Source of the DNA: an uncultured Schlesneria sp.
Lineage (GTDB): Bacteria > Planctomycetota > Planctomycetia > Planctomycetales > Planctomycetaceae
Direction: 5' to 3'
Length of the DNA stretch: 64,000 nt
Assembly (NCBI GenBank): GCA_903858935.1
Contig: CAIOKO010000111.1
Span: 1-64,000, forward strand
The notes beneath the pieces were generated by a model. The model was given only the letters and a program-made list of their open reading frames with translations. It made no database searches and was not told where the DNA came from. Below are positions 857 through 61,106 of the stretch, in pieces (positions within the stretch are counted from its first letter, which is position 1; each line of letters starts with the position of its first letter). Both the position numbers and the translations under genes were made by a program.

Positions 857-3433
857 TCAGTCTGCTGAACGCCTCAGGCCGGTCGGCCCCCTGGCGGAAA
901 TAAGGCTGTTTCGCGATCGCTTCGAGTCACTTGTTTCGCGGCGCTTCTTGACGGCCAGTTCAATGCCGCGTTCGATGAGTTCCCAAGCGGTATCGTGCGA
1001 ACGATAGGAGACAAGCGTTTTACCTTTAAACGGTAACAACTCGAATTTGGCAAAATCCTCTTTCTCGTACGTACATCGTTTGAGCAGCACCGGCACGATG
1101 TCAGCAAGGCCATAAGCATGCTGCTGCATGGAGATCGGTCGCTCTTCGGTGCTGATATATGCGGAGGCGAGAAAGTCGCGGCTCACCATGTAGATGACGA
1201 TCTCCGCTTCCATGAGTCGCTTTTTGATCGTCTCATCCCAATCCTCCCCTGGAACCAGGTCGGTATCTCGCCACGCCGTAATGTAGCCGCGATTGGCAAG
1301 AATCCGCAGGGTCGGGAGCAGCCGTTTCACCATTTGTTCGTCGGCGTGCGCGTAGCAGACGAATAGCGGTAATGCGCGTTCCACTTCACCCCTCTTAGCT
1401 TTCGCCACGGTTGCTTCGGGGCTTTCCACTTCTTCCAGCGTTCGCTTCGGATTGATCGTTACCGTCTCGCCGCCGACTCGTTTCTCGGTCCGCTCGTCCG
1501 TGCCTCGGTCGTCGCGCAGCACCTCCCACTCCGACCAGACACCAGGATTCTCTTCACTCTCGACCCACGTGGTGACCGGGTTCTTTCCGTTGAGGATCTG
1601 CATCTCCGCCTGAACATATTCCGTCAGCCAGACCCGGTCGTCACGTCCACCCAGAGCAAACAGATCCGTTAACCTTCCCTCCGGGTCGGCCCGCACGAGC
1701 GCTTCGGCCCCTCCTCGCCTCAAAACGACGCCGCGCTGCCACCGTGGCTGCCCGTCGCTGAGCGTGTGCGAACGAACGACGAACTGTGGGATTAATCCTG
1801 GCGGACGGAGCCCGTCGTATCGGAACTGAACGTGCCGTGCTTCCGGCTTCAGGAACTTCTTCAGTTCCTGTGGCTGGTTGGCGCTCAGCAGGCCAGGGAC
1901 CAGGTACTGCTCGTCGACGTCATTGAGCGCGAAGCAAAGTTCGAATTTCACCATCAGCTTCAGCAGATACTCGTGCATCTCTGGCGGATATTCGCGTTTT
2001 CCAGGCAAAGCTTTGGGAAGATCGCTGCGGCGCAGCACGCCACCAGTCTTCTTTTTCTTTATCCATCGCAGAATCTTGTAGATCCCGTCAACCAGCCATT
2101 GCGGCTTCAACACACTGGTGTCGCGCAGGCGGGGGTCGTTCCGATAATTGAGCGCGATTCCCAGACAATTGAGTATGTCCGCAAGCGTTTCCTGCTGATC
2201 GATCTGCGTCACTTTTTCTGCTGTGCAGATCGCTTGATATTCGTCGAATCTGACGTAGTTCGCCTTCTGCTGTTCGAGACGCTCGCGCACCTGGGACCAG
2301 CGCCGATCGATTTTCTGCCGCACGCTGGGCATCGAGCGTGCGAGTTTTGCGATTTCTTGACGCAATTGTTGGATTCCGAACGACGGATCACAGTCGGTCT
2401 TCAGTACCCCCTTCACTTCAGGGTAGTTCTCTTTCAGATAGTGCTCGTCGATGTCAAACGGGTGAGCCTTTATCTGGTTCAGCACGATCAATACCGGCGA
2501 ACCTGGACCGTAAGTCCGAACAAGCCGAAGCCAATACTCGGCCTCGGGTTCGGCTCGGCCCTGTCTGCCAATCAGTACGATGACATAGATGCTCCGTTCG
2601 GAAAAGAAAAACTGGTGCGTGTGGTGCAGAAACTCTTGACCGCCGAAATCGCAGACGTGGGCGCGGATCATCGACTTGCCGCTGGGGAGTTCAAGTACAT
2701 GCCGTTCAATACCGGGTGTTTCTTTTTCCCGCTCGTCGTGCGGTTCACCTCGCAGGGCTTTGCTGAGACACGTCTTGCCGACGCGTCCATGCCCCACCAA
2801 GAGCAGCTTCACTTCATTCAACGGCTCAGAGCTTTTCCTCTTTGCACCGAAGTAGGCATCCAAAATCATCGCTGGATTGTCAGTCCCGAGAATCTCTTGA
2901 TTCAATCCCAGCTTCGGATTTCCGAACAAGGATAGTAGGTCGAGGGATTTTTGGAGATCCCTTAAAGTTACTGGCAGCGACGTGAGTTGATTCATATACA
3001 AGTAAATTGTCTTGAGAGACTTGATTTGACCAATCTCTGGCGGGATTTTAGTGATCTGGTTGTTACCGACATCAAGAAACTTCAAGGCAGTGAGCGCGCC
3101 AATCTCCGGCGGCAGCGTTGAGAGTTGGTTATCGCGGACTATGAGAATCTCTAACGCGGTAAGCGAGCCGATCTCCCGTGGCAGCGTTACGAGTTGGTTA
3201 ACGTTGAGATCGATCTCCGTTAACGCGATAAGCGAGCCGATCTCCAGTGGGAGCGCTGTGAGTTGGTTATCGCTGAGATCAATCCTCTTTAACGTGGTGA
3301 GATCGCCAACTCCTGGCGGCAGAGTAACGAGACCTAGGCCACTCAAATCGAGCGTCGTTGCACGATTTAACTTGGCAGTGGCGATTCGGCTACGGGCTTC
3401 GATGTGGCCGTTTGGAGAGGCTTTTTTCTTCAT
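857..3433 (-). CDS. LRR-Roc-COR-TIR multidomain protein (Roco family GTPase)
   Basis: An 858-residue protein. Residues about 25-170 are six or so 23-residue leucine-rich repeats (pattern LxxLPxxIGxLTxLxxLxLxxNQ). Residues about 205-365 are a Roc GTPase: P-loop GHGRVGKT at 214-221, DFGGQE at 262-267 and a degenerate NQIKAH in place of NKxD at 319-324. A COR-like region follows (about 390-640). Residues about 688-825 are a TIR domain (FVCYAHADE at 691-699, AWRDTDLVPGEDW at 720-732). Roco proteins couple GTP-driven dimerisation to an effector; bacterial TIR domains are often NADases in anti-phage defence or signalling. The TIR catalytic glutamate is not certain by eye, since S-x-DFLASAYIS carries a less usual context. 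The gene stands alone, with repeats on both sides. The ATG at 3433 has only a weak GTGGAA upstream. Its substrate and trigger are unknown. Confidence 0.9.
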   Translation of the reverse strand: MKKKASPNGHIEARSRIATAKLNRATTLDLSGLGLVTLPPGVGDLTTLKRIDLSDNQLTALPLEIGSLIALTEIDLNVNQLVTLPREIGSLTALEILIVRDNQLSTLPPEIGALTALKFLDVGNNQITKIPPEIGQIKSLKTIYLYMNQLTSLPVTLRDLQKSLDLLSLFGNPKLGLNQEILGTDNPAMILDAYFGAKRKSSEPLNEVKLLLVGHGRVGKTCLSKALRGEPHDEREKETPGIERHVLELPSGKSMIRAHVCDFGGQEFLHHTHQFFFSERSIYVIVLIGRQGRAEPEAEYWLRLVRTYGPGSPVLIVLNQIKAHPFDIDEHYLKENYPEVKGVLKTDCDPSFGIQQLRQEIAKLARSMPSVRQKIDRRWSQVRERLEQQKANYVRFDEYQAICTAEKVTQIDQQETLADILNCLGIALNYRNDPRLRDTSVLKPQWLVDGIYKILRWIKKKKTGGVLRRSDLPKALPGKREYPPEMHEYLLKLMVKFELCFALNDVDEQYLVPGLLSANQPQELKKFLKPEARHVQFRYDGLRPPGLIPQFVVRSHTLSDGQPRWQRGVVLRRGGAEALVRADPEGRLTDLFALGGRDDRVWLTEYVQAEMQILNGKNPVTTWVESEENPGVWSEWEVLRDDRGTDERTEKRVGGETVTINPKRTLEEVESPEATVAKAKRGEVERALPLFVCYAHADEQMVKRLLPTLRILANRGYITAWRDTDLVPGEDWDETIKKRLMEAEIVIYMVSRDFLASAYISTEERPISMQQHAYGLADIVPVLLKRCTYEKEDFAKFELLPFKGKTLVSYRSHDTAWELIERGIELAVKKRRETSDSKRSRNSLISARGPTGLRRSAD

Positions 3434-9007: not shown

Positions 9008-9418
9008 CTAACCCCCAGTCCCGCTCGCCTTGTTGTAATCCTGCTCGCGAAAAACGAGCAACGGATCTTTCCCGACAACGAGGTACTTGATCTCGGCTTC
9101 TTCCTTATCCTCTTCCAGTTTCATCTTGACCAGAAAGATTTTCGGACCATCGGAAGGAACCTCGTCGAGAATCTCATAAGATTCGAGCTTTTTACCATTT
9201 TGCCATCGAGCGTCGAAGACATTGACAGGAACAGTGAAGTCCTCCACCGGTCCATGTTTGGCGCCAGACTTCCAATGTCCCAATGCCGCTTCCAGAGCGC
9301 CCCGCGCCATATTCGCTTGCGGAATATACTTTTTCTCTGGCGGACCACCGCAGCCGATAAACAGGCCGAGAATGACCATCAATGGAATAACTCGTGACAG
9401 GTTTTGTTTCTCAGGCAT
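9008..9418 (-). CDS. Small lipoprotein A, paralogue of the one at 15535
   Basis: 136 residues from ATG 9418 (AGAGTGGA upstream; the longer frame adds eight residues). The leader RVIPLMVILGLFIGC ends in a lipobox (LFIGC). The mature part carries YIPQANMARGALEAALGHWK, then SYEIL-type ESYEILDEVP, then KYLVVGKDPLLVFREQDY. The same three blocks appear in the protein at 15535-16005 (SYEILGEVP, RYIVVGIDPLWVFRQEDY). The family is unknown to me. One copy lies on each side of the CusA/CusB genes, suggesting a part in the same envelope process, perhaps metal handling or assembly. It is separated from cusA by inverted-repeat element A, so it may be transcribed separately. Confidence 0.8.
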   Translation of the reverse strand: MPEKQNLSRVIPLMVILGLFIGCGGPPEKKYIPQANMARGALEAALGHWKSGAKHGPVEDFTVPVNVFDARWQNGKKLESYEILDEVPSDGPKIFLVKMKLEEDKEEAEIKYLVVGKDPLLVFREQDYNKASGTGG

Positions 9419-9529
9419 AAAAGATCCACTCTTTCGTTTCAAAGCGTACTTGATTCAATTCCGATGCTTAGGCTGAATTCTCGACAATCGTTAAGAGCTT
9501 ACATTCCAGGGAGGCTATGTCCCTTTTAA

Positions 9530-9750: not shown

Positions 9751-12700
9751 CTAATCTTGACGACGTTCAATGTCCTCAATTGAAGAGAAGGGTCTTTTTT
9801 CGTTGAAACTTTCGGCATTGCCCGGATTCCGATCTTGTGTTGAAACTGAATGTCGACTGAGCCAGCGGCGACGGCGGATACGATAGAACAGTACTGGCAA
9901 CAGCAGATCTATTACTTCGTCCGCAATAAGAATTCCGCCAAGGACCGGTGCCGCCATGGGCCGGATGACCTCCGCACCAATTCCATCGCTCCAAAGCATG
10001 GGAGCCAATCCGAGAATTGTCGTTGCTTCGGTCAGAAGTTTTGGGCGGAGCCGGTGGACTGCACCATTGAGGACGGCCTGTTTCAGTTCGGGAAGAGTCA
10101 TCCGTTCAAGTCCACCTGCCAGATCGACCGCCTCCCTCAAGTACACCAACATCACGATTCCCGTTGCCGCAGCCATTCCGAAACAGGCAATATATCCGAC
10201 GCCCACTGCCACGGAGAATTTGTAGCCCAGAATCCACTGGCAGATCAGACCACCGGCAAGGGCACCGGGTGCCGACAGCAACATCAGCGCTGCGTCAGTC
10301 CAATCCCGATAGGTACAATACAACATCGCGAAGATGATCAGCAGAACGATCGGTATCAGGAATAACAGCGAACTTCTGGTTCGTTCCGCATGCTCGAACT
10401 GGCCCGTCCATTCGACGAAGACACCAGATGGCAATGAGACCTGCCTGGCGACAACAGCGCGAGCTTCATTAACAAATTCGAACGGGCTGCGTTCGCGAAC
10501 GTTCATCCTCACATAATTTCGCAGCCAGCCATTTTCACTTTTAATCGTCGCTGGCCCTTCGGTGACCTGAATGTCGGCGACGGCTCCCAATGGAACCGTA
10601 TTTGAATCTGACAAGCTGCTGATCTGGTGACCATTCGAATTTGTATTTGCCCATCTATGTGACAGATGGCCGGTCTTATCATCTATCCAGGATAGAGTGA
10701 CGTTTTTGCGGCATGGGACGGGCAGATATCTCAACGATTCTTCATCTTGCTCAACAGACGGTGAACTTGTCTGCAGACGGACTGCAATTCGTTCACGTCC
10801 ATCCAGAATATGATCGACGATTCGACCCGACAGTGCCGTATCAAGGACTGCCTGAAGATCGGGAAGACTGACACCATGCTCTGCGGCTCGTGCAAGGTCG
10901 GGTGTGACGAAAATCAACCCCTTGCCTCGAATGGGGTCAGCGACCACGTCACCAGCTCCCGAGAGGTCCTTTAAAACCAGCGCGATCTGTTCCGAGACGC
11001 GAACGACATCATTCAGATTTCGTCCAAGAACGCGTACTCCCACTTCGGCATTGATCCCCGTGGTCAGCATGTCGACCCGATTCTGAATCGGCCGCGTCCA
11101 GACGTTGGTCCATCCCGGCATCTTTAAAGCCCGATCCATTTCTCCCTCAAACGCAGTCAGGCTGGCTGCGTCATGTTGCCAAAGAAGCAGCGACCGTGAA
11201 AACTCGTCAGAAAGACGACGACAGATCGAATCAAATCGGGGATGCGGATCGATCAACGGAAGCACAGACAGCGAAGGTAATCCATGGTGTGTTTCATCGT
11301 CATGAGATTGCAGCAGGGTACTTCGAGACTTCATGATCTGCGAGTACCTCTCGACGAGTGCATCGTCAGTGAACTTTCCCATGGAAAAGCATTCGTCGGC
11401 AACCAATCTTAACCACGTTGGTGCCGTTCGCTGGTGAAGCGTTCTGTCTAAATTGAAAACATGTTGATGCCAATATCGAGAATGTTCACGTTGTACCACA
11501 GCCAGGACCCGCGTCTTGCTAGTTGATTGTTCCAGTCCGAACGCCGCGCCGATCGTGACCATGAATTCAAGCGATGAACCCACGAAAGACACTTTCTTTG
11601 CATTTTCATCATGTAAAAGCTGATGATGTTCCAGCGACTCCAGAACCAATGGCCAGAGCCTGGAAATGGACTCCATTGATGGTGACTGGGCTAATTCTCG
11701 TGTCTCCAACATGGGTATTTCCGTGAGAACCACCGTGACATCCGCCGGTGATAACGTACGAGTCAATTGTCCGCTTGCCTTCAATTGCTGCCCGATTTGT
11801 TCGATCAGAACTCGACAAAGATCCTGCTGCAGTTGATGACAAAAAACGTTTGTCAGCTGAAATGCCGCCTCACGCTGAATTGCATCGAAACGAAACTGAA
11901 CCGCGTCAATAATCGTCTTCATTTCCTCGGGAGAAACGGCTTCAGCGAGCTTTGCTTCGCCCAGTTCATGGACCATTTGCTCCGTCATTCGCCCGGCATC
12001 GGCACGCAAGAGGCGGCGTTTTGGCCACATTTCGCGAGGTCGGAATTCGACCATCGTTTCGATCATGTCGAGCGGCGCGGGATCAAAAGGAGTTTCCGCT
12101 CGACCCGCTTTTCCAGTGACCATCGCCACCTCGGGAAATCGGCAAAGAACCATATTCCGGGCCTTCAAATCATCTGCAGACTGAGTGATCGATGCACGGG
12201 GAATGGTAATTGGCATATCCATCACCATTCCTTCGTCGAGCGGGATCCGCATCTCAATCCCCAGCGGTTTCATCAAGTTCTGGCCGATGATCGCCATCAC
12301 GATTAACGCGACGGCATTTCTCATCGCTCGCCAATTCGCGCCTGACGACACCGCTTCCCAAAGGATTAGTGTGAGGGACCCGAATAAGACCGATCGAAAG
12401 ACGAAGTCATTCCCCAGTGGAATCGATGCGAGCACCAGAGTCATACTCATAAAATAGATGAGGGGACCGGGTCGATCCATCAGCCATGAGAGCATCGGCC
12501 GATAGACACCGATGACACTTCGCACGATCGCACTGTCAGATTCATCTTTGATTCGTCCACGTACGAGAAATGTGCAGAGAGCCGGCACAAGCGTTACCGC
12601 CAGAAAGGCGACTGAAATGAGTGCAAGCGACTTTGTCAAAGCTAAGGGGCGATACATGCGGCCATCGATTCCACCAAGAGCAAACACTGGTGTAAATGAC

Positions 12701-14079
12701 ACAAGCATGACAAGAACAGAACAAAACACGGGCCAACCAACAGTCTGACAGGCTGCTGCGATCGTGTCTGTTACATCGCCCTGAACCGGATCGTCACCGA
12801 ATCTTAATCGCAATCGATGCATCACGTTTTCCGTCATGACGATCGACGAATCGACAAGCACTCCGATCGAGATCACGATCCCCGCAAGCGACATGATATT
12901 GGTCTGGACGTCGATCACGCCGGTCGTGCGCAACAACCACATGCAGAGAAATGTTCCGAGCACCGAGAGTGGAAGTGTCAGAGCAATGACGACCCAGGCT
13001 CGAAAGTGACGTAGAACAACCAGCACGCAAATGCCTGCAACAAGAATCGCTTCGATCAACGCTCGCGTCACCGTCCTGACCGCACCAAGAATTAACGGCG
13101 TCCGATCATAACAGGGGATAATTCTTACATCTTTGGGCAGGCCTCGGGCGACTTCCTGCAGTCTCGCTCGGACCTGTCGCGTCACCTCCAGGGGGTTGTG
13201 CCCATAGCGCAAATGGACGATCCCCGCGACAACTTCATTTCCGTCCTTTTCAAACATCCCTCGCCGAATAGCTGGCCCCCAGGCCACTTTGGCAACATCT
13301 TTCAGTGGCAGGCTCCCTCCGGCAGGGAGTGGAATGAGCCGCTGCTCCCACGAGCTGATCTGATTCGAACGTTCATTGTCGGAATGAAATTGAACAACGA
13401 ATTCGGCATTTCCCTTATGAACGACGTGGCCACCGACATTCGAAGTGGATCGCGATAGCTCGTCGTAAAGGTTTAGCACTGTCAGGCCGTATGCTGCCAA
13501 CAACCCTGAATCAACCTGGATTTTCAGTTCAGCGACAAAACCACCGACACTGGCAACTTCAGCAACTCCGGCGACAGACCTTAATTGAGGAGCAATCGTC
13601 CAATCTTGTAATCGGCGAAGCTCGGTCAGATCATGTCCGACACCTTCGACGGTGTACCAGTAGATCTGGCCCGTCGGAATACCATCAGCAGCCAGTCGTG
13701 GAATCACTCCTTCAGGCAGTCGAACCTCAGTTGAGGTCAGTCGTTCCTGGACCTTTTGCCGAGCCGCTCCGAAGGAAATATAGTCCTCGAAAATGACATG
13801 GAGCATCGAATAGCCCATGTCGCTCGAACCACGAACGACACGCACTCCATCAAGCCCCTGCAATTGCAGCGACAGTGGATACGTCACGTGATCTTCGACT
13901 TCCTGCGGCCCATGCCCTGGCCAGCTGGTGAAGACGATCACTTGATTTTCAGACAAGTCAGGCACGGCGTCCATCGGTGTGTGAACGGCAGCGTAGATTC
14001 CGGTCAACGCACAAACGATCGCAGCGAGAACCACGACTGTTCGGTATTGAATCGAGAACTTGATCAGGCCGGAAATCAT
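9751..14079 (-). CDS. cusA: Heavy-metal RND efflux pump, CusA/CzcA family, with large insertion
   Basis: 1442 residues; CusA/CzcA proteins are usually about 1030-1060. It drives proton-coupled export of metal cations across the envelope. Family signatures: DAVPDLSENQVIVFTSWPG (38-56), the TM4 relay residues D410 and E417 (VLVDSSIVMTEN), LDEGMVMDMP (614-623), AETPFDPAPL (661-670) and NRVDMLTTGIN (1000-1010). Two departures are visible. Between the post-TM7 region and LDEG there are about 50 extra, mostly hydrophobic residues (about 540-600). Between the end of the RPREMW segment (about 686) and the resumption of the family at about 985 there are about 290 extra residues, partly helical and histidine-containing. 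The adaptor gene is 135 bp upstream. No outer-membrane factor gene is present. The metal cannot be read from sequence; the pump could be copper/silver or cobalt/zinc/cadmium type. Confidence 0.93.
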   Translation of the reverse strand: MISGLIKFSIQYRTVVVLAAIVCALTGIYAAVHTPMDAVPDLSENQVIVFTSWPGHGPQEVEDHVTYPLSLQLQGLDGVRVVRGSSDMGYSMLHVIFEDYISFGAARQKVQERLTSTEVRLPEGVIPRLAADGIPTGQIYWYTVEGVGHDLTELRRLQDWTIAPQLRSVAGVAEVASVGGFVAELKIQVDSGLLAAYGLTVLNLYDELSRSTSNVGGHVVHKGNAEFVVQFHSDNERSNQISSWEQRLIPLPAGGSLPLKDVAKVAWGPAIRRGMFEKDGNEVVAGIVHLRYGHNPLEVTRQVRARLQEVARGLPKDVRIIPCYDRTPLILGAVRTVTRALIEAILVAGICVLVVLRHFRAWVVIALTLPLSVLGTFLCMWLLRTTGVIDVQTNIMSLAGIVISIGVLVDSSIVMTENVMHRLRLRFGDDPVQGDVTDTIAAACQTVGWPVFCSVLVMLVSFTPVFALGGIDGRMYRPLALTKSLALISVAFLAVTLVPALCTFLVRGRIKDESDSAIVRSVIGVYRPMLSWLMDRPGPLIYFMSMTLVLASIPLGNDFVFRSVLFGSLTLILWEAVSSGANWRAMRNAVALIVMAIIGQNLMKPLGIEMRIPLDEGMVMDMPITIPRASITQSADDLKARNMVLCRFPEVAMVTGKAGRAETPFDPAPLDMIETMVEFRPREMWPKRRLLRADAGRMTEQMVHELGEAKLAEAVSPEEMKTIIDAVQFRFDAIQREAAFQLTNVFCHQLQQDLCRVLIEQIGQQLKASGQLTRTLSPADVTVVLTEIPMLETRELAQSPSMESISRLWPLVLESLEHHQLLHDENAKKVSFVGSSLEFMVTIGAAFGLEQSTSKTRVLAVVQREHSRYWHQHVFNLDRTLHQRTAPTWLRLVADECFSMGKFTDDALVERYSQIMKSRSTLLQSHDDETHHGLPSLSVLPLIDPHPRFDSICRRLSDEFSRSLLLWQHDAASLTAFEGEMDRALKMPGWTNVWTRPIQNRVDMLTTGINAEVGVRVLGRNLNDVVRVSEQIALVLKDLSGAGDVVADPIRGKGLIFVTPDLARAAEHGVSLPDLQAVLDTALSGRIVDHILDGRERIAVRLQTSSPSVEQDEESLRYLPVPCRKNVTLSWIDDKTGHLSHRWANTNSNGHQISSLSDSNTVPLGAVADIQVTEGPATIKSENGWLRNYVRMNVRERSPFEFVNEARAVVARQVSLPSGVFVEWTGQFEHAERTRSSLLFLIPIVLLIIFAMLYCTYRDWTDAALMLLSAPGALAGGLICQWILGYKFSVAVGVGYIACFGMAAATGIVMLVYLREAVDLAGGLERMTLPELKQAVLNGAVHRLRPKLLTEATTILGLAPMLWSDGIGAEVIRPMAAPVLGGILIADEVIDLLLPVLFYRIRRRRWLSRHSVSTQDRNPGNAESFNEKRPFSSIEDIERRQD

Positions 14080-14213
14080 TGGAACCCGTGAACCTTACTT
14101 AGTGCTGACAACAAACAGGAAGCGACCTTGCCTTGTCTCGTTTTCATTACACACACGAACATTAACTCGTGTTCGGGCGAAGCGCCGAATATAAATTCTC
14201 GGCTTAATACAAA

Positions 14214-15449
14214 TTACCTTGCCCCAAGCCTTGCGAGGTACTTTTCGGGATCGTCCCTTAATCTTTGAGTACAACCGGCACAGCAGACGAAGATTTTCTT
14301 CCCGGAAACCATGACCGGAACGGGACCACCCATCGAATCTAATGAGAGTTCGGTCACAGGACAGATCCGTTGTTTGTCGACAAGCGTCTGTTCCTCACGC
14401 GACAACTGGTGCTTCGCCGTATTTCTCTTTGTTACGGGTAAAACCGACTCATTCGACGCAGCCGGCACCAACGGTTTCGACTTCGGCTCATTCTGGTTCG
14501 CACCAAAATAACCCGCAGCGAGCCCTGGGTTCAGCCGCGTCTCGGCGTCGATCAGAAACGCGCCAGCTGTGGCGACATGTTGGCCAGCCTTCAACCCATT
14601 GGTGACGGGATAATAACCACCACAACGTTTTCCCAGCTCGACGGCGACTCCGTCGAACAGACCGGGCATTGTTTCCACGTAGACCAGTCGTTCTCGACCA
14701 CGATCAACGACAGCAGACTCAGGAACGGCGAGTACCTGAGCTTCGCCACCTGCAGCAAGCGAAACCGTCGCTTTTGCAATATCCCCAGCCGAAAACTTCC
14801 CTGAATTATCCATTGCGAATCGAATTTGATGATGCCCATCAACAACTTCGAGAAGCGCGGTTGCAGAAGCCTGCTCATGTCTGGAGACGAGTTGGACATC
14901 TGCCGTATTCGTTGCTGAAAAGAGCAAAGCATCGGACTCAGCAATTGTCGCGTGAAATCCAAGTGCGCCCTCGTTCGTCTGTCGTAAAACACCCGTAAAT
15001 GTTTGCTCAAGTTTCAGCGTTCGAGGCTCGACCAGGGACGTTCTGATCCCCGCCAGTTGAATTCGATACGGAGAAAGCTGCATCCGAGCGATCACCCCTT
15101 CGGGCAGCATCTGAGCTTCCATTTTCTTGCGAGGAACAAGATCCATATTGCAGATCGGACAAATTGCGGGCCAGACCGAGACGACACCTGCGTCCATTGG
15201 ACAAAAGTATTCGTGCGAACTCGATACGGCACCACTTGCATGACGGTGTCCGGCCCATATCCATCGATCCCACGCACCTCGTATCAGCGGCCATTGACTG
15301 GCGACCAGGCCAGCAATCGCGACGACCAGGAAGAAACGTAGTCGTACCCGGGCCACTTCAATCCACCAGGGCAGATTGCTTAGAGCGGCAACCGACGGCA
15401 CGTCATTCTTGCTGTCGGTTGCCGTGGAACTCGATTGATCTGACGACAT
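14214..15449 (-). CDS. cusB: CusB-like RND adaptor with N-terminal HMBD and C-terminal YHS-like metal domain
   Basis: 411 residues from ATG 15449 (AAGGA about 10 nt upstream). After a cytoplasmic tail, one membrane segment (FFLVVAIAGLVA) anchors it. Residues about 81-103 are a heavy-metal-binding domain (YFCPMD, CPICNMDLVP). Residues about 110-290 hold the beta-rich adaptor part (TFTGVL, VLAVPESAVVDRGRERLVYV, GLKAGQHVATAGAFLIDAE). The usual lipoyl/alpha-helical hairpin block seems absent: TFTGVLRQTNEG runs straight into beta-barrel-like sequence. The C-terminus (about 363-411) is a YHS/TRASH-like domain (CPVTEL, FVCCAGCTQRL). It would hand metal to the pump encoded just downstream. The call as RND adaptor is firm; the missing hairpin is inference by eye. 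Confidence 0.85.
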   Translation of the reverse strand: MSSDQSSSTATDSKNDVPSVAALSNLPWWIEVARVRLRFFLVVAIAGLVASQWPLIRGAWDRWIWAGHRHASGAVSSSHEYFCPMDAGVVSVWPAICPICNMDLVPRKKMEAQMLPEGVIARMQLSPYRIQLAGIRTSLVEPRTLKLEQTFTGVLRQTNEGALGFHATIAESDALLFSATNTADVQLVSRHEQASATALLEVVDGHHQIRFAMDNSGKFSAGDIAKATVSLAAGGEAQVLAVPESAVVDRGRERLVYVETMPGLFDGVAVELGKRCGGYYPVTNGLKAGQHVATAGAFLIDAETRLNPGLAAGYFGANQNEPKSKPLVPAASNESVLPVTKRNTAKHQLSREEQTLVDKQRICPVTELSLDSMGGPVPVMVSGKKIFVCCAGCTQRLRDDPEKYLARLGAR

Positions 15450-15534
15450 GAAGCAAATCCTTGCCGAACATATGACACTCAGCAGCATGAATTCATGAGG
15501 GAAGGGGAGTCAGCCCACTCATTATCCGTCTCAT

Positions 15535-16005
15535 TTACTCGCCTGTCGGGGTATCCTTTTTCTTCTCTTCCATCGGGTGCTCCCAATGCGACAGCAGATC
15601 GTAATCCTCCTGGCGAAAGACCCAGAGAGGATCAATCCCGACGACGATGTACCGTAGTCGCTCGGTGGTTTCCGAGCCGTTCAGTTTCGCTTTCACAGCA
15701 AAACATCGCGGTGCATTTCCAGGAACTTCACCCAGGATCTCATAACTGATGACCTGCTGACCCGGTTGACGATGCGAGTCAACCACATGAACGGCAGGCT
15801 TCTTAACCCCCTGGACAAGGCCAACCGGCTCACCTTTTTTCCACGCTTCCATTCCGGCCTTCACGGCAGATTCGGCAACCGTCACCGATGGAATGAATTG
15901 GGAACTTCGATCAAACTCGCCGCAGCCACATGAGTTTAAGCAAGTGACGAGCAGCGCAACTCGAAAGGAAAGTCCACGGTGAATGGGATCGCAAGCAACT
16001 GTCAT
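15535..16005 (-). CDS. Small lipoprotein B, paralogue of the one at 9008
   Basis: 156 residues from ATG 16005, preferred over the longer start at 16026 because GTGGA lies 7 nt upstream and the leader is then compact. The lipobox is near LVTCLNSC. Shared blocks with lipoprotein A: FIPSVTVAESAVKAGMEAWK, SYEILGEVP and RYIVVGIDPLWVFRQEDYD. The C-terminus is charged (EEKKKDTPTGE). It sits 22 bp after the DUF1559 gene and about 85 bp before cusB on the same strand, so it is probably in one transcript with the efflux genes. The function is unknown. Confidence 0.8.
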   Translation of the reverse strand: MTVACDPIHRGLSFRVALLVTCLNSCGCGEFDRSSQFIPSVTVAESAVKAGMEAWKKGEPVGLVQGVKKPAVHVVDSHRQPGQQVISYEILGEVPGNAPRCFAVKAKLNGSETTERLRYIVVGIDPLWVFRQEDYDLLSHWEHPMEEKKKDTPTGE

Positions 16006-16027
16006 TAAGGAATCCACAATTGCCATT

Positions 16028-17065
16028 TCAGAATGGCGAGTTCACTGTTTCACTTCCTGCCCGGGTACCCAACGCCCGCCAGACAGTCAGGTCGACGTTG
16101 TCGCTGACAAAGTGCACAGCTCCATCACCTGTCATGCAGTGAACGCCGCCGACGTGTCGGCTCGCCGCCGAAACTTGCATGGCCATGTTCGTCATCGTCC
16201 CGGGAAAACCTGTTCCGGCACAGCTCTTCGAATTCGGTACCGCAACGTGATTGTAAAGTGAGCAACAGTTCTCACCCATGACCCAACTGTAGCCCCATTT
16301 ACTTGTTAAAGGGGTTGCTGTTGCAGCGTTAAGTGCCTGGCATGCCTGGTATGTTGTATCAAGCGAGGTTTGATGCGGTATGACGAATAAGTCGGCCTTC
16401 GGATCAGGAATGCCATGCCCTCGAATCTTTTCACTGAAGAAACACGTTGAGCTGGAGCCATCCGTGATGTCTCGCATCCGGCATTGACTTAAATAGTAAA
16501 AGACTCCGGTCTGAACTTCGCTGGGCGAATTGTCTGTGCTTGCGCCCGGTTGGTCACTCCGATCGCAAAGCCAGCCCCCCTGGTTTGCGGCGTAATTATT
16601 CTGACCAGTCCAGGCATCATTGACGGCCGAGTCTGACGGACAAATGAATAATGGGATGACCGTACGACACTGGGCCGAGTTTATTCCCGTAGGACTGCTG
16701 TAGGCCGGCATAAAGGCAATCACGCCCCCCATTCCCGGAGTTTCGGGGGGAGCACTAAAGTTGATTGAGTTATACAGCGGTGCCTGATCGATGTACGGCA
16801 GGATCATTGCATGTTGCGACCAACGTGCGTACGCCGCAGCTCCCGTATAGCTGGCACCTTTTCCGAACGGAAAAACGGTAAAAGCCTCGTGGTAGTTATG
16901 CAGGGCAAGCGCAAGCTGTTTGATGTTGCTTTTGCACTGCGTCCTTCGAGCCGCTTCTCGGGCTTGCTGCACGGCGGGAAGCAACAACGCAATCAAGACC
17001 GCAATAATCGCGATCACTACCAAAAGCTCGATTAAGGTAAAACCCCGCGAACGCGTACGGTTCAT
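16028..17065 (-). CDS. DUF1559 pseudopilin-like exported protein
   Basis: 345 residues from ATG 17065 (GGAG 8 nt upstream). The N-terminus has the prepilin-type motif SRGFTLIELLVVIAIIAVLI followed by LLLPAVQQAREAARR, the hallmark of the DUF1559 family that is greatly expanded in Planctomycetes. The C-terminal H-x9-DG-like end is present (HVGGVHCMTGDGAVHFVSD). Cysteines are numerous. The protein should be inserted by the prepilin peptidase/type II-like route and exposed outside the inner membrane. It is first in the row leading to lipoprotein B, cusB and cusA, suggesting it belongs with the efflux module. The precise role of DUF1559 proteins is unknown. Confidence 0.92.
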   Translation of the reverse strand: MNRTRSRGFTLIELLVVIAIIAVLIALLLPAVQQAREAARRTQCKSNIKQLALALHNYHEAFTVFPFGKGASYTGAAAYARWSQHAMILPYIDQAPLYNSINFSAPPETPGMGGVIAFMPAYSSPTGINSAQCRTVIPLFICPSDSAVNDAWTGQNNYAANQGGWLCDRSDQPGASTDNSPSEVQTGVFYYLSQCRMRDITDGSSSTCFFSEKIRGHGIPDPKADLFVIPHQTSLDTTYQACQALNAATATPLTSKWGYSWVMGENCCSLYNHVAVPNSKSCAGTGFPGTMTNMAMQVSAASRHVGGVHCMTGDGAVHFVSDNVDLTVWRALGTRAGSETVNSPF

Positions 17066-17638
17066 GGCGAAACTCCATTTATCAAAAAGGGAAATCAACG
17101 TCCGACTGAAATCGGGAAAAAACTGAACTTAAATCACAATCTTTCAGTTCGGCTCCGTTCGATTCTATTCAGAACGGACTTATTCTTCGATACGAACTGA
17201 CCTTGATTTGGCGTCGTAACCAAATGTTGCCTGTTGATTGAGCTTTCGGCGACATTGTGCGCGGCGGGGACTAGCAGAGAAATCATCACCGCCGTTAATA
17301 GAGAAACGCAAGAAATCTCGAACAAGATCGAGTTATGGGGTGCGGGGTTGGTGGAATACATCATGAAATTCCCATTCGGTAAACGTGAAAAGCCAGAAGG
17401 ATTAGTCATGGAAACGATGCATGAACGTCAAATGGCAATTCGACATCCAAGTCGTTGACCGGGAAGCTTGTCGCATGAATTCTCAATTGAGTGGGATGGC
17501 ATCTCACTGCCGTTTCCCGAATTGAGAACTTCTACAACGGGTTCATCCCATACGAATTTCGCGAAGTCACCAGGACTGCAAAGGCGGCAGTCGGACCTGC
17601 GTTCAATTCGCAGGAGCCTCGCATGCAAACTCCAACCA
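17066..17638. other. Gene-poor stretch between the DUF1559 gene and the Cys-containing exported protein
   Basis: 573 bp. A weak minus-strand frame at 17134-17409 (91 codons, one hydrophobic stretch ISCVSLLTAVMISLLVPA) lacks a visible ribosome-binding site and a recognisable family, so I do not call it. A compound hairpin with outer arms TCTCAATT / AATTGAGA and an inner near-perfect stem lies at about 17479-17527, downstream of the minus-strand gene at 17639, and could end its transcript. The promoter of the efflux row should be here. Confidence 0.4.
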
Positions 17639-30667: not shown

Positions 30668-33600
30668 TCACAGCGTCTTCAAATACTCAATCAAATCAAA
30701 CAGAGCCTCGGAATTTTCAGAGCCGCTCCAGTCGAGTCGAACTTTGTGTTCACCGGGCTTCTCGGCTCCACTCCAGTCCATGCGAAGAATATTTCCATTG
30801 TCATCGACGGTCAAATTTTTATCGTGTCCTCGGTTTGAAGAGCTGTCCCAGGCCGTATTAAACACCGAGACCGTTGGATCGACTTCCTTGAGTTGATCGA
30901 TCTGCTCACTGCTCCACAACCAGCCGACGTGTTTCAGGTCGTAGCTGATCGAACCTCGAGCAAACGTTGCGGGCCTCTCACCGGGAACCAGCAGATGGTA
31001 CAGCGTTGGCACCGATCCATTGTGGAGATAGGGAGCACGAGACCATGTTCCTTCCAGGGCGTTGGTCACGTACCCCTGATTAGCTAACTCTGACCGATCA
31101 AACACGATGTCATTGGGGTGAAGATCATGGGGACGGTATGTCTTTCCATTTGCATCCTTCGTTTCGTACGCTTCGGGGACGCTTGCCACGAAATGCTTCA
31201 AGAACAGTTGCAACGCATCAGCGTTGAGAACTTGCGAGCGATTGGGATCGGTTCCAATCTGTTCGGCAAACGTGGTGTTCTCGCCCTTATAGACAATATC
31301 GTTGTGATCTTTGTGACACATGCCGCAGTTGGTCTCGAAAAGCTTTCGACCACGTTCGACTCGGGTCATGTCGACGTCAAACGGGTAAGCGGGAGCAGGT
31401 AACGCGTGAATAAACCCGGCAGTAATGTCCGCATTAACGACGTTGACCTGCCTGGGATCCCCTGCAACGGCCAGACTCGCTGCGACATTCCGATAAAACG
31501 GAGATTTCACACTTCCATCAATTTGGGCGATATTGCGAGCCCCTTGATTGAACGTGCTGACAATGTCGGTCACGGTCGCCTTTTTTATCGGGAGTGCCGG
31601 GAACGTCATCTCAGCGAATTTTTGTAGAGTCTCATTGGGGCCAATCGAGGCCACCGTGTCGAGCAAACACAGGCGCGGGATCAAATCGCCGCTCCCATCG
31701 GATTGACCCGGACTTCCACCGTCCAGAGGAGGTGCGTTCTCCTTTGAATAACTAGTCGCTTTTTGCTTGTCGACCGCCAGTTTGCTGAGAGAAATCTGCA
31801 TGGCAAACCCGGCAAGAATTTCGACGGCAACATCCTTCGGCTCGGTAATGGCCAAAAGCCCTCGTTCTTTGACTTCGGCAGCGGCATCAAGACCCCGATA
31901 TTGACCGTAATAGTAATTCGCTGGCTTGGAAGCGATGATTTCGCGAATTCGTCCAGCCGTTTTTGCAATATTTTCTGGCGAATTCAAGAACTCGCTGACC
32001 GTTCGCTCAAAGGCATGCCGCCAGCGTCTGACATCGAATTGCGTGTTGGGTGCTCCGACTAATGCCCGATAGTTAACGGCCTCTCCATCAAGGATGCGAA
32101 CGCGTCCGATATGACAGGCGCCGCAAGTGAGTGCAACCCCTTTTAGTGGACCTGCCGGATGCCCCTCAACCATCGAATCCCAGCTTAATCCGAGCGGTAA
32201 AGGCCGGTCTGGCTCGGTGGGGCTGGGGATCAATCCGAAGCGTGAAAATTTTTCGTCAGGTGTTCCCCAGATCTCAGGAGCAAGATCAGGAAACGAGCGG
32301 AGCAGAATGACGGGGACACCCGCAAACCCATCGGTGGCGTTGGCAAACCAGTCATAGCCTTCGGCATTCGCACTCAGATAATCGAGATGAGTCTTCTCCG
32401 TTGCCGCTTGAATTTCAGCCCACGGGCGGGAACTTTTCTGGTCAACGGTTTTCGGTGTTGCGGCATCGCGGGAAAGGGAGGGAGTCTGGTGAACTTTCAG
32501 ATATTCAATCAAAGCCCAACGATCGTCATCGGACAAGTCCGTACCAATTTCATGCCCTGTGTTATGGTTGCCAGGGATCGTTGTATCGACTTTTGTCAGC
32601 TTCTTCTGGGAATTATGCTTGTCGGTCATCGTTGGGAAATCTTTTGGATTCCACTCGAAACCGACTTCTTTCGGCAGGAAGTCTTGTGGGCCGACGACAA
32701 ATTCGGTTGGCCGATCCTTTGCCGGTAGTAATAAGTGATAAAGCGTCGGAACCGACCCATTATGCAGGTAAGGCGCGGTCGCCCAAATTCCATCCAGGGG
32801 CTTGGCCGGATAGACCTTTCCGTCATTATCATGCATCGGGTCTCGCCATTTGACGGGACGACGGGGACTTTCCAGTTCTTCCATCAAACGCTGATTTTCA
32901 GGGGACATTGTCGACTTGGCGGTGGCCTGTAATTTTTCGAGAAGACCTCCGATAGCGGTCGCAAATCCGGCTTGTGAGCCATCAGGCAGAAAGACAGGCT
33001 TGGCAAAATTGAGTGCGTCGGATCGATCCGTACCGGCTTCTTCGAGAGTAAAGTGTTCAAACTTCAAAAGGCCTTTTTCGTCCCGCTCCGAAGGATTGTG
33101 ACAGACGGCACATTTGTCTTTGTAAATCGCCCAACCTCGCTTTTGTTTGACGGGATCGATTTTTCCTAAAACCTCCTCAGGCCATTCGGGCGTCGCGATA
33201 TGCGGGATTTGCTGCTCAATCTTCATCTGATTGACAATATTGACCGAGGTAACGTTGTCGTGTGTGAACGTCGCTCCGACACCGATTGATTCACCAATAC
33301 TGCGTTGAATGACGGAGTTCGTGTTGGAATTCCAGTGCAACCAGGCAAACTGTTCGATATTCCATAACGGTGGAACGCTTACCGGTGCGTTAACCGGTTC
33401 CATGTTTCGATGCTCAGCAGTTCCCTTTGTTGCATCAAGTTCTCCGAATAACTCAACCCGAGCCGTTCCGAAATCGTCTGCTCGGCCATAACCAGCCGAA
33501 AGGCGGTGCCCGGGCTCCGCCAACCAACCTCGCATCTTGAGGAATCGGAGACGGTATTCGATCAACTCGCGGCATTCCTCAAGCCTGGACAGGATGTCCG

Positions 33601-34441
33601 TGATTGCACTCAGACGATGGTCTTCCGCCAGTTTTTTAAGCGAACTGTCAGCTCGATGTGTCAGCTGATGTAACTTTGCTGCGATGCTCGCCAGCAAGGT
33701 TTTATCAACAGATGGTGGTTTTACGTCAGTCAGGATCGACGCGAAACGTTCTTCAATGTGTTCAACCAATGCCTTGCCAAAGGGGCCGTCGTCTATAATT
33801 CGGTGAAAATCTTCAAGACCATGTAACGTTTTGCCATCTCGCTCAACGACTTCATGCAACAATCGCTTGAGAAATGCAACCAGTTCTTTTTTATCTTTCA
33901 GCGTCTTTTGCATTGACTTCGCGATGGCGTCTCCCAGGGCATCCACATAGAACAGTCCTGAACCACCTTCGATTCGAACTGTTTTGTCCCCAAAGCGAAT
34001 ATCTGAAGTGTGGCAGGCGGCGCAGGTAAAGCCGAACATTTTAGTCGGCTTTATTCCGACTGTGTTCAAAACAATTCCGACAGGATAGCCATTGGGATTG
34101 TTCTCAGACTTTTCACCAGGAAGCAATCCGAACCGCTCCAGGTTCTCGAGATAAGGCCGATTCGTGTCGCTATCGATCAACGCTTTTACAACATCGTAGG
34201 GAAAGAAGCCGCTCCCTTGATCGAGATATTGAAACGTATCGGCCTCGAAGCCAGGTTTTCGATTGATGCTCGGTGGCACCGTCCGGTCGACAATTGCAGC
34301 AGCGGATTGTTGGTCAGTCACCGATTTAGCAACGTTGTCTGGCATCTTTTCCGCCGGCAAATCCGCCTTCTGGGTCTGTGGCTTTCCACATCCAACGGTC
34401 CACACCACGATAAGAAGAAGAACTTGATTGCAACATTTCAT
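30668..34441 (-). CDS. Tetrahaem lipoprotein made of two fused RoxA-like cytochrome modules
   Basis: 1257 residues. The lipoprotein leader ends in VVWTVGC. There are four CxxCH haem sites: C140-H144 (FTCAACHTSD), C444-H448 (KDKCAVCHNPS), C773-H777 (LTCGACHIGR) and C1039-H1043 (ETNCGMCHKDH). The protein falls into two similar halves: each starts with a DxF/GxFPYD- or LRSFPD-type opening, a first haem with GxxTCxACH, and later the phrase PYLHNGSVPTLYHLL (557-571 and again near 1170). This is the dihaem family that includes RoxA-type oxygenases and cytochrome c peroxidase relatives; here the unit is duplicated and fused. It is located in the periplasm, membrane-anchored. Substrate or electron partner is unknown. 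The catalase-like gene follows. Confidence 0.87.
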   Translation of the reverse strand: MKCCNQVLLLIVVWTVGCGKPQTQKADLPAEKMPDNVAKSVTDQQSAAAIVDRTVPPSINRKPGFEADTFQYLDQGSGFFPYDVVKALIDSDTNRPYLENLERFGLLPGEKSENNPNGYPVGIVLNTVGIKPTKMFGFTCAACHTSDIRFGDKTVRIEGGSGLFYVDALGDAIAKSMQKTLKDKKELVAFLKRLLHEVVERDGKTLHGLEDFHRIIDDGPFGKALVEHIEERFASILTDVKPPSVDKTLLASIAAKLHQLTHRADSSLKKLAEDHRLSAITDILSRLEECRELIEYRLRFLKMRGWLAEPGHRLSAGYGRADDFGTARVELFGELDATKGTAEHRNMEPVNAPVSVPPLWNIEQFAWLHWNSNTNSVIQRSIGESIGVGATFTHDNVTSVNIVNQMKIEQQIPHIATPEWPEEVLGKIDPVKQKRGWAIYKDKCAVCHNPSERDEKGLLKFEHFTLEEAGTDRSDALNFAKPVFLPDGSQAGFATAIGGLLEKLQATAKSTMSPENQRLMEELESPRRPVKWRDPMHDNDGKVYPAKPLDGIWATAPYLHNGSVPTLYHLLLPAKDRPTEFVVGPQDFLPKEVGFEWNPKDFPTMTDKHNSQKKLTKVDTTIPGNHNTGHEIGTDLSDDDRWALIEYLKVHQTPSLSRDAATPKTVDQKSSRPWAEIQAATEKTHLDYLSANAEGYDWFANATDGFAGVPVILLRSFPDLAPEIWGTPDEKFSRFGLIPSPTEPDRPLPLGLSWDSMVEGHPAGPLKGVALTCGACHIGRVRILDGEAVNYRALVGAPNTQFDVRRWRHAFERTVSEFLNSPENIAKTAGRIREIIASKPANYYYGQYRGLDAAAEVKERGLLAITEPKDVAVEILAGFAMQISLSKLAVDKQKATSYSKENAPPLDGGSPGQSDGSGDLIPRLCLLDTVASIGPNETLQKFAEMTFPALPIKKATVTDIVSTFNQGARNIAQIDGSVKSPFYRNVAASLAVAGDPRQVNVVNADITAGFIHALPAPAYPFDVDMTRVERGRKLFETNCGMCHKDHNDIVYKGENTTFAEQIGTDPNRSQVLNADALQLFLKHFVASVPEAYETKDANGKTYRPHDLHPNDIVFDRSELANQGYVTNALEGTWSRAPYLHNGSVPTLYHLLVPGERPATFARGSISYDLKHVGWLWSSEQIDQLKEVDPTVSVFNTAWDSSSNRGHDKNLTVDDNGNILRMDWSGAEKPGEHKVRLDWSGSENSEALFDLIEYLKTL

Positions 34442-59208: not shown

Positions 59209-60318
59209 TTAGAATTCACCCACAGGGTTACCGTCATTGAAGAGCACAAGACGGGTCATCGTCTCGAGATTGATGTTTTGACTGATAAACCGAACAGTGC
59301 CGTCAGCCATCGCGAAATGCGCACCGCCTACGTGGAAACTGTAATAGTTGCTGTAGTTCAAGCAGTTAATCGCACATCCACCATCGGACTCGCTGACATT
59401 GTGTATCGATCCGGGAGCCCGACCACGGATATCGGTTCCGGTGGACCATTGCCAGTCGGTCCATGCCGGACCCATCTGACGCTGGGGATTTCCCGTTGGA
59501 CACCCATCACAGAGCGGACCAGTCGGTTTCCCCATGGCCCACATTTTGCCACCTGGCGCTGAATTTTCACCAACAAGAATCGTATTCGATGTGCCGTCGA
59601 TAACCTGGGCGACTTTTACTCCAGCGCAACCGGCGCCGTTGGCCGAGTTAATATCCAGCATCCCCGCAAATTGGCCGTAATTGATCCCATTGACGGTTCC
59701 GTGCATATTGCCGCGAGGCCATTTACCAACGTAATCCAGGGCGCCACCGGCGTGGTAGGTAACCGGTGTCGGGCTGATCCAGTCCTCTTGATACGCCGAG
59801 TACAAGTTGCCGGTGTGCGGGCTCGACGGACAAATGTATCCCGGAATGACCGCTTTGGCAGCAGCCACACTTTGTTGTGCAGTATAGGGTGAACCCGTCA
59901 GGTAGTTCATCACTGATCCCGTTGCAAGCGTCGGGTCAGTATATTGCATGTTCACCGAGAAATTGATCGTGTTGTAGAGGGGGGCCTGATCGATAAACGG
60001 AAGCGCAAATTCCGGCCAGGCGTGGAAATTGGCATCGTCTTTCGAACTGGGAATCCCTTCACCAATACTGACGTTTGGACCATCAAGAATCAGTAGTGCC
60101 GGAATAAACCGTCCATGAGTACTTTCATAATTGTGAAACGCCAAACCCATCTGCTTCAAATTGTTTTTACATTGTGCCCGTCGAGCAGCTTCGCGAGCTT
60201 GCTGCACCGCCGGCAACAGCAAGGCAATGAGAACTGCAATGATCGCAATGACGACGAGCAATTCAATGAGTGTGAATGCCCGTTGCCGCATCCTTGGACT
60301 TACGTTTGAATGAACCAT
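59209..60318 (-). CDS. DUF1559 pseudopilin-like exported protein
   Basis: 369 residues from ATG 60318, fixed by a strong AAAGGAG 8 nt upstream. The N-terminus has the prepilin motif RAFTLIELLVVIAIIAVLI followed by LLLPAVQQAREAARR. The central part has many aromatic and cysteine residues (GYICPSSPHTGNLY, CDGCPTGNPQ) and the C-terminus keeps the family's HVGGAHFAMADGTVRF block. It is a close relative in layout to the protein at 16028 but with a different central region. It is followed by a lipoprotein gene. Likely surface-located; role unknown. Confidence 0.94.
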   Translation of the reverse strand: MVHSNVSPRMRQRAFTLIELLVVIAIIAVLIALLLPAVQQAREAARRAQCKNNLKQMGLAFHNYESTHGRFIPALLILDGPNVSIGEGIPSSKDDANFHAWPEFALPFIDQAPLYNTINFSVNMQYTDPTLATGSVMNYLTGSPYTAQQSVAAAKAVIPGYICPSSPHTGNLYSAYQEDWISPTPVTYHAGGALDYVGKWPRGNMHGTVNGINYGQFAGMLDINSANGAGCAGVKVAQVIDGTSNTILVGENSAPGGKMWAMGKPTGPLCDGCPTGNPQRQMGPAWTDWQWSTGTDIRGRAPGSIHNVSESDGGCAINCLNYSNYYSFHVGGAHFAMADGTVRFISQNINLETMTRLVLFNDGNPVGEF

Positions 60319-61106
60319 AAAAGACGCTCCTTTAAAACCGAATGACAACCACAGAAAATCGGAAAACAAAATCCGATCGTTTGGAAAAAATCTGTCCGAC
60401 GAATTGAAATAGAGTGCTGACAGAAAACCGACTTAATAAGTTGACCCGAGTCGCCTGTATGATATGACCGCTGGATTTTAGCGACGACCTAAAGGAAATC
60501 AAAGCAAAAAGCTTAAATTTCGTGATAAAATACAGCCACACAAATCGCTAAATCATTTCACTACAGACACAGAGCATTATTGCACGCACACTCTTTCATA
60601 TAATTTACCTAAAAACCACTTTATATTCGCAAAAGACCAGCGAAATCTGGGAAACAGCCCAGCACAGTCGAGCTTGAGTGGATCTATTTGCCGCAATTCA
60701 ATACCGCGCCGCTATGACCACGAAATGTCGCTATGACAGCCAGTTGCCCTCCAGAACCAGACTCAACAACCCATGTGGAGTCCGGTTTGTAAGACTTCAA
60801 AAGTGATGACGACTCTCACCGAACATCCATCGCCTCAGCGGATGAATTCTTGTTAACAGTAAGGCTTACACACTGCGTCATGCATTTTCAGACGCGATCG
60901 CGTCGGCGAACCCAAGTGGCATCACCCAACAGGGCGCCTTACGCGACTCAAATGACTGCTGGACCGGTCCGGGAAAAAGCCATCTACCAAACCGGCTGAC
61001 ATTGCCAACCAGCAACGCCTCAATATTATACAACGCCCACCGATACACTCGTCTGCAACGAGCTGGGGTGAAGGAAATACTAATAAATTCTGCCTGATGA
61101 TATGAA
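60319..61106. other. A/T-richer gene-free stretch
   Basis: 788 bp between the DUF1559 gene (its start at 60318) and the ABC ATPase (stop at 61107), both on the minus strand. The composition is noticeably more A/T-rich from 60320 to about 60640. The promoter and 5' leader of the DUF1559 gene should be in the part nearest 60318. I find no RNA gene, repeat or small coding frame that I can support. Confidence 0.4.

Follow-up and report, generated by a model that had tools for sequence, protein, structure and literature searches.

The Cus system of Escherichia coli (CusCFBA) has been described as a tripartite assembly that spans both membranes, and for its resistance-nodulation-division (RND) pump, CusA, a cryo-electron microscopy study assigns the proton relay to D405-E939-K984-T987 and cytoplasmic uptake to pairs of transmembrane methionines, and describes a helix that links PC1 to PC2 and a cleft whose distance was measured between N651 and R705 (PMC8092243). 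CusF binds Cu(I) through one histidine, two methionines and one tryptophan (PMC7558416). The adaptor BesA of Borrelia has no alpha-hairpin and keeps its lipoyl, barrel and membrane-proximal (MP) domains, and its partner gene besC is co-transcribed; the sections of PMC3807786 on which we draw conclude that BesABC is a functional tripartite pump and that extra domains in BesB and BesC do not compensate for the missing hairpin. Here we compare with these systems a locus from an uncultured Schlesneria sp. (Planctomycetaceae; GenBank assembly GCA_903858935.1, contig CAIOKO010000111.1, which we call C111), whose first 64,000 nucleotides make up the whole stretch that was analysed, hereafter the window. 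It encodes a CusA-family pump and a shortened, or stub, adaptor together with two lipoproteins (Lipo1 and Lipo2) and a protein of the DUF1559 family, a large family of unknown function that is apparently restricted to Planctomycetes and that has 68 paralogues, two of them essential, in Planctopirus limnophila (PMC10632474). The titles and abstract openings of the open-access literature gave no description of a planctomycete RND/CusA, hairpin-less-adaptor or DUF1559 system of this kind.

The window pump is a CusA homologue with equivalents of the methionine triad M573/M623/M672, of E625 and of D405 and K984, the MP part of its adaptor resembles CusB and SilB, and an H-W-H-M motif in Lipo1 recalls the CusF site (PMC7558416). 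Unlike CusCFBA, however, the locus has no linked CusC-type gene, its adaptor has neither lipoyl domain nor hairpin, and it adds an insert of about 290 residues at the hinge of the pump, the two lipoproteins and the DUF1559 protein. Related loci of the Planctomycetaceae, which we call clade A, share a five-gene operon on one strand, in the order DUF1559 protein, Lipo1, stub adaptor, pump and Lipo2 (Table 1). The gene content, the domain losses, the conserved triad, the diverged docking regions and the linked motifs were read directly from the sequences. It appears from them that in this clade a tripartite exporter of Cu(I)/Ag(I) has become an envelope system without a duct, and we place at about 0.5 the probability that the five genes form an RND system of the Planctomycetaceae for Cu(I)/Ag(I) that lacks a duct, in which the stub adaptor acts like a chaperone and envelope proteins accept the metal. 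What is new is the loss by clade A of the hairpin, the lipoyl domain and the linked outer-membrane factor (OMF); the insert is not the key. An original prediction, made from the window alone, had proposed that pump and adaptor were reshaped together to work without a conventional duct, with the insert perhaps replacing the hairpin. The lipoyl loss and the flanking operon genes go beyond it.

The adaptor reading frame has 424 residues from its first ATG (15488), or 411 from the start used in the original prediction (15449). The span from its AGIRT motif to its VPESA motif covers 107 residues, as against 265-267 in most of the hairpin-bearing planctomycete adaptors measured (407 in one, L075), and the lipoyl-hairpin profile finds no match in it, from which it follows that the lipoyl domain is missing along with the hairpin; the lipoyl-hairpin-lipoyl stretch is likewise absent in the profile-profile alignment. 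What was predicted as an adaptor without hairpin is thus borne out. Its C-terminal part (query 221-322) matches CusB 295-394, and a similarity of query 95-166 to CusB 46-112 scores 4.8 bits, too weak to count alone. The heavy-metal-binding domain (HMBD) exceeds the PF19335 gathering cut-off (29.2 versus 23.6 bits). The C-terminal YHS-like metal site of the original prediction stands as a weak match (E 0.009), which at 16.4 bits does not reach the PF04945 gathering cut-off of 30.3. An AlphaFold2 (AF2) model from four sequences is poor (mean pLDDT 40.7, with the beta segment mostly at 60-77) and weakly favours the absence of a long hairpin, for which length is the stronger argument. In Foldseek this beta segment has ZneB as its top match (E 5.4e-3), with none at E <= 0.001, followed by a viral fibre and other folds and also by MacA, EmrA and BesA. 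Among plasmids, 244 records match the adaptor, none covering 80% of it, and three of the ten listed matches, when inspected, proved to be adaptors of 505-516 residues beside pumps of 1065-1068 residues, not stubs. Cys-rich, metal-binding-like modules also occur in hairpin adaptors, before the MP domain at L094 (10631-12556) and L075 (4723-6660), and repeated C-terminally at L080 (5343-7667).

The extent of these losses was gauged on a tree of 70 RND pumps, inferred by a quick search from CusA columns only, with the insert columns removed. All 61 insert-bearing pumps are joined (100% in the SH-like approximate likelihood-ratio test, SH-aLRT), and among them the 25 pumps of clade A, the window pump included, form a group at 100% and the other 36 a group at 85%. 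These values carry caveats: the program flagged odd composition and the meeting of long branches, the sole insertless triad pump is E. coli CusA, and the insertless CusA relatives of the planctomycete survey were left out. L055-L057 were omitted as repeats of L052-L054; L068, L078, the second piece of L067 and one fragment each in L074 and L083 were too short for the first tree; L146 (52% filled), whose stretch holds two OMFs with no adaptor in view, stands outside the second tree and the counts; L154 yielded no pump frame; and further likely clade-A copies in genomes G390, G392, G427 and G440 lie outside the counts.

None of the 24 clade-A adaptors in view matches the lipoyl-hairpin profile, whereas all 31 in view beside the other 36 pumps do (28 of them in the profile alignment, L089 and L145 being divided between two frames and L135 truncated where its contig stops; none is in view at L079, L086, L139, L141 and L144). 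The barrel-like segment is kept in 17 of the 24 clade-A adaptors and absent from seven, which fall in two subclades, so that the tree implies one change in hairpin state and two in barrel state. Searches with an OMF profile made from nine PF02321 proteins of the window genome and CusC found an OMF in 1/25 clade-A stretches versus 23/36 others (in 17 of these on the same strand as the pump), and in 1/10 versus 13/15 where at least 5 kb was available on both sides of the pump. The sole clade-A case (L074) is encoded on the opposite strand, next to a different pump that has no insert. Flanks are shorter at 14 of 24 clade-A loci and at L082, so that OMF absence is weaker evidence there. The other insert systems, such as L087, L133 and L143, resemble that of the window in their homologous hinge insert, methionine triad and HMBD-bearing adaptor, but differ in having a lipoyl-hairpin adaptor (mostly of 500-970 residues), an OMF in the proportion given, a methionine-containing DC loop and a near-constant DN length, and in lacking the lipoprotein pair. 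In four genomes (G358, G382, G361 and G386) a clade-A system coexists with an insert system of the hairpin-bearing kind, which argues for a division of labour.

At the locus itself, the predicted lack of an OMF gene was upheld, there being no PF02321 match on C111 at E <= 0.01; a genome-wide search for CusC/TolC relatives returned 27 PF02321 matches (14 open frames) on other contigs of this genome, which is 99.96% complete. These proteins, together with the precedent of BesA and with deep-interpenetration models that permit direct contact between RND pump and OMF (PMC4446572), lend something to the idea that the stub adaptor stabilises direct docking of the pump on a TolC-family protein recruited in trans. 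We consider this unlikely, since BesA keeps its lipoyl domain and has besC co-transcribed (PMC3807786), whereas in clade A the lipoyl domain is gone from 24/24 adaptors and the barrel from 7/24, no OMF is linked, and the DN and DC regions of the pump have diverged.

That divergence is seen on the exit side of the pump. The segment equivalent to CusA 205-265, which we take to be the DN docking region, is one residue shorter, net, in 31 of 34 insert pumps outside clade A (a change of 0, 1 or 2 in the rest) and 2 to 59 residues longer in all 24 clade-A pumps scored. The DC loop (CusA 786-806) holds at least two methionines in 31/33 of the others and none in 18/24 of clade A. A rank test of these regions does not give a probability for independent events, because shared ancestry inflates the comparison. 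Relaxed constraint from duct docking would be the simplest reading of the pattern, and with the adaptor state at 24/24 clade-A loci it agrees with the proposal that pump and adaptor look reshaped for work without a duct. The methionine-containing DC loop of pumps outside clade A (31/33, for example L087 and L143) is of low complexity and could possibly serve as an exit relay for Cu(I).

The pump is above the curated TIGR00914 (CusA/CzcA HME-RND permease) cut-off (789.8 versus 701.45 bits) and aligns with E. coli CusA (3t51) in four collinear blocks, in which residues 1-555 correspond to CusA 8-561, 604-686 to 562-644, 979-1130 to 654-806 and 1162-1412 to 803-1052. The 1442-residue length and the insert in the second periplasmic loop are thereby confirmed: residues 687-978 (~292) are unmatched and stand in place of nine CusA residues (645-653), with a net insert of 283 residues in the MAFFT alignment. 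Replacement of 645-653, taken with the cleft distance measured from N651 to R705 (PMC8092243), puts the insert at the hinge of the cleft. The further ~50 hydrophobic residues that had been noted are also found, as ~48 residues that follow TM7 and peak in hydrophobicity at 559-577 and 590-608; as a part of a duct-less design this segment was rejected, being common in hairpin-bearing systems and changing four times on the tree.

Could the insert itself be the duct? It is large and predicted to be helical (an AF2 model from four sequences is all helices, at a poor mean pLDDT of 48.1), and in clade A it co-occurs with the stub adaptor. We regard its forming a duct in place of the hairpin as highly improbable, and the original suggestion to that effect finds no support, because systems of the standard arrangement carry the insert too and its place is the hinge between PC1 and PC2 (CusA 645-653), by the cleft and not at the apex. 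Homologous inserts accompany hairpin adaptors in 31/31 cases in view and OMFs in 23/36 stretches, and the inserts of the two groups are homologous by hhalign (E 2.1e-38). All of these pumps are planctomycete, and the finding that had been named as one that would refute the suggestion, the insert in pumps from other phyla that use a CusC, was as such not encountered; its logic applies all the same within the phylum. The insert is identified neither with a known domain (1 of 21 members has a weak Pfam match, Pro_dh-DNA_bdg, E 0.0069) nor with a known fold (the top PDB profile match, at E 0.42, is a designed helical repeat protein).

The search of planctomycetes that had been proposed found the insert repeatedly within the phylum. 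It is 65-73% identical in three uncultured Schlesneria genomes, its matches in 170 genomes of the order number 45 at E <= 0.1 and 35 at E <= 1e-3, and a 21-sequence profile finds it in 24 of 392 phylum genomes at E <= 1e-3, two of which (G182 and G206) are 15-residue tail matches. In pumps examined over their full length, the net insert measures 98 to 368 residues. A search of 149 phylum genomes with E. coli CusA gave insertless relatives of normal length (55, 53 and 48% identity in G072, G052 and G004), and other relatives, in frames of 1070-1163 residues, break after about CusA 638, for which reason the hinge may take insertions of several sizes. As judged from these alignments, the insert is recurrent in the phylum and no chance feature. 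Beyond Planctomycetota its occurrence was checked by a tblastn search of 72,556 plasmid records, which gave no match, and by one single-sequence scan of genome contigs, which gave three loci, all Schlesneria. At L067 (7014-11296) the clade-A pump lies in two overlapping frames of 900 and 573 residues, split within the insert by a frameshift or an assembly error.

The residues bearing on substrate and energy coupling are partly conserved. K482 and T987 are kept in the window pump in addition to those named above, the triad is MMM in all insert pumps having those columns, and it is absent from all 13 other RND frames of the window genome. Among the residues of the methionine pairs that were checked, M391 and M410 are kept and M271, M403, M486, M501, M755 and M1009 are lost; given the role assigned to these pairs in PMC8092243, uptake through the periplasmic cleft is therefore the better guess. 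The proton relay is incomplete, E939 being replaced by Ala. E939 is Ala or Ser in 24/24 clade-A pumps that cover it and Glu in 30/33 others (counted from tree labels), which might suggest that the protein is a sensor or transceptor, or a pump with impaired energy coupling, metal at the triad being signalled onward via the lipoproteins and the DUF1559 protein and not transported. To this we give only a slim chance, since D405, K984, T987 and K482 are kept, Glu stands at CusA position 988 in all 12 planctomycete rows compared (six of them clade A), and E939 is also lost from three hairpin-bearing pumps (Ser at L148, Gly at L151, Gln at L153), two of them with an OMF in view. As a marker of clade A the loss of E939 fails on these same three pumps; indeed neither it nor the loss of the methionine relay marks the clade, because both occur in other insert pumps.

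The flanking genes are as constant as the adaptor losses. Wherever the contig reaches, clade-A loci have Lipo1 (23/23), a DUF1559 gene upstream of Lipo1 (21/21) and Lipo2 (25/25), and the partial loci L068 and L078 also have Lipo2; the 36 other insert-pump stretches gave no lipoprotein match. The two lipoproteins are paralogues (phmmer 2.2e-23). Two motifs that resemble sites for soft metals, and so may bind copper, set the linked copies apart. An HWxH motif is found in 20 of 23 Lipo1 proteins (19 as HWxHxM), 0/25 Lipo2 and 0/10 unlinked lipoproteins, and GENCC in 20/20 linked and 0/19 other DUF1559 proteins, with the DUF1559 fragment at L069 left out and L155, a second copy of the window's gene, dropped from the others. 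The DUF1559 protein itself is well above the PF07596 gathering cut-off (171.8 versus 23.3 bits). The lipoprotein profile has matches in 7/294 phylum genomes and none in the PDB up to E 10, and among 26 members scanned with Pfam, two families each gave a weak match to a single member. CusF was not among the Pfam matches of ten window proteins, and we treat the likeness of HWEHPM to the CusF site as a lead. DUF1559 proteins with small lipoproteins also recur as a two-gene module away from RND pumps, in Planctomycetaceae and nearby (L167-L176). Such unlinked pairs share the order, the DUF1559 gene lying directly upstream in 10/10 lipoprotein loci checked (two in the window genome), but lack HWxH and GENCC, and the stretches of 7-12 kb examined around them contained no relative of CusA, CusB or CusC at E <= 1e-10. 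A second DUF1559 protein of the window (59212-60432, minus strand) is without GENCC.

Turning to mechanism, we infer the substrate, the direction of transport and the protein that receives the metal from this combination of parts, which suggests a CusA-type pump that hands copper on within the envelope, with no outward piping. The adaptor would have shrunk to a membrane-anchored subunit that keeps the MP domain and two candidate metal sites (HMBD and YHS/TRASH-like); presumably unable to bridge to an outer-membrane channel, it would most likely be a metal-delivery or gating subunit. Cu(I) would probably be loaded through the periplasmic cleft, whose hinge bears the insert, and metal leaving the trimer would probably be given to, or exchanged with, envelope proteins of adjacent genes instead of entering a duct, the candidate acceptors being Lipo1 with its HWxHxM, the CC-bearing DUF1559 protein and Lipo2. 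Two P-type ATPases of the window genome lie above the Cu-ATPase cut-off, so that the cell has a route for copper into the periplasm, after which a duct-less pump could act. Only tentatively, at odds clearly below even, do we suggest that a proton-driven pump which has abandoned trans-envelope export charges a CusF-like lipoprotein and the pilin-like DUF1559 protein with Cu(I)/Ag(I), and it is equally doubtful, if possible, that within this scheme the adaptor is a metallochaperone and the pseudopilin-lipoprotein module replaces the TolC duct. Alternatively, the operon might be a periplasmic copper-loading machine that feeds a cuproenzyme or envelope structure, for use and not for detoxification; the coexistence with hairpin-bearing systems in four genomes and the presence in the operon of four proteins or domains that bear candidate metal sites are in keeping with this, but no cuproenzyme is found by Pfam among 18 window proteins (the flanks of other loci were annotated only for the genes named), and we hold it to be quite unlikely.

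Several observations weigh against the duct-less acceptor system that we prefer. An OMF encoded on another contig could serve in trans, the AF2 predictions of both insert and adaptor are poor (mean pLDDT 48.1 and 40.7, respectively), the DN region of the window pump has lengthened by a mere +2, and most other insert pumps, too, have an incomplete methionine relay. Since clade A arose once, its loss of the hairpin and of the OMF and its link to the lipoproteins count as a single correlated event. HWxH and GENCC were first noticed and only then counted, in related sequences; 3/23 Lipo1 proteins are without HWxH, and CC, though not GENCC, occurs in 2/19 other DUF1559 proteins. Finally, DUF1559-lipoprotein pairs form a module that is general among planctomycetes, so the one in this operon could have a function unrelated to metal.

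The features of the locus are collected in Table 1. Elsewhere in the window, an LRR-Roc-COR-TIR protein of 858 residues (857-3433, minus strand) presents a ROCO/NLR-like architecture in a bacterium (Pfam), and a protein of 1257 residues (30668-34441, minus strand) has RoxA-like and other cytochrome c matches.

Table 1. Features of the clade-A operon in the window, in order of transcription
Feature	Position	Strand	Basis
DUF1559 (PF07596) protein, type IV pilin-like N-terminus, GENCC	16028..17098	-	Pfam E 3.9e-50, N_methyl 8.2e-9
Lipoprotein 1 (Lipo1), 163 residues, C-terminal HWEHPM motif	15535..16026	-	no Pfam family; Lipo2 paralogue
Stub adaptor: N-terminal transmembrane anchor, HMBD, barrel-like segment, MP domain, C-terminal Cys site	14214..15488	-	
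HMBD, adaptor residues 94-119	15132..15209	-	PF19335
Retained barrel-like segment, adaptor residues ~160-243	14760..15011	-	low-confidence AF2, Foldseek, profile alignment
MP domain, adaptor residues 255-321	14526..14726	-	MP profile, CusB/SilB similarity
C-terminal CPVT...CCAGC site, YHS/TRASH-like	14217..14363	-	weak matches below cut-off
CusA-family RND pump, 1442 residues	9751..14079	-	TIGR00914, residue mapping
Extra hydrophobic segment after TM7, pump residues 556-603, possible transmembrane hairpin	12271..12414	-	alignment, hydrophobicity
Insert of ~290 residues at PC1-PC2 hinge, pump residues 687-978	11146..12021	-	alignment; all-helical prediction, low confidence
Extra DC-region loop, pump residues 1131-1161, without Met	10597..10689	-	alignment
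Lipoprotein 2 (Lipo2), 144 residues, Lipo1 paralogue, without HWxH	9008..9442	-	

Clade A thus departs from the tripartite, membrane-spanning arrangement as which the Cus system has been described, and its adaptor losses can be traced within one clade, in which the lipoyl domain and hairpin, and twice the barrel, have gone while the MP domain and the metal sites were kept. This makes it testable which minimal part of an RND adaptor is essential to the pump, and whether an RND metal pump can function without an OMF, and it offers a candidate biochemical context, that of metal handling, for one linked member of the DUF1559 family.

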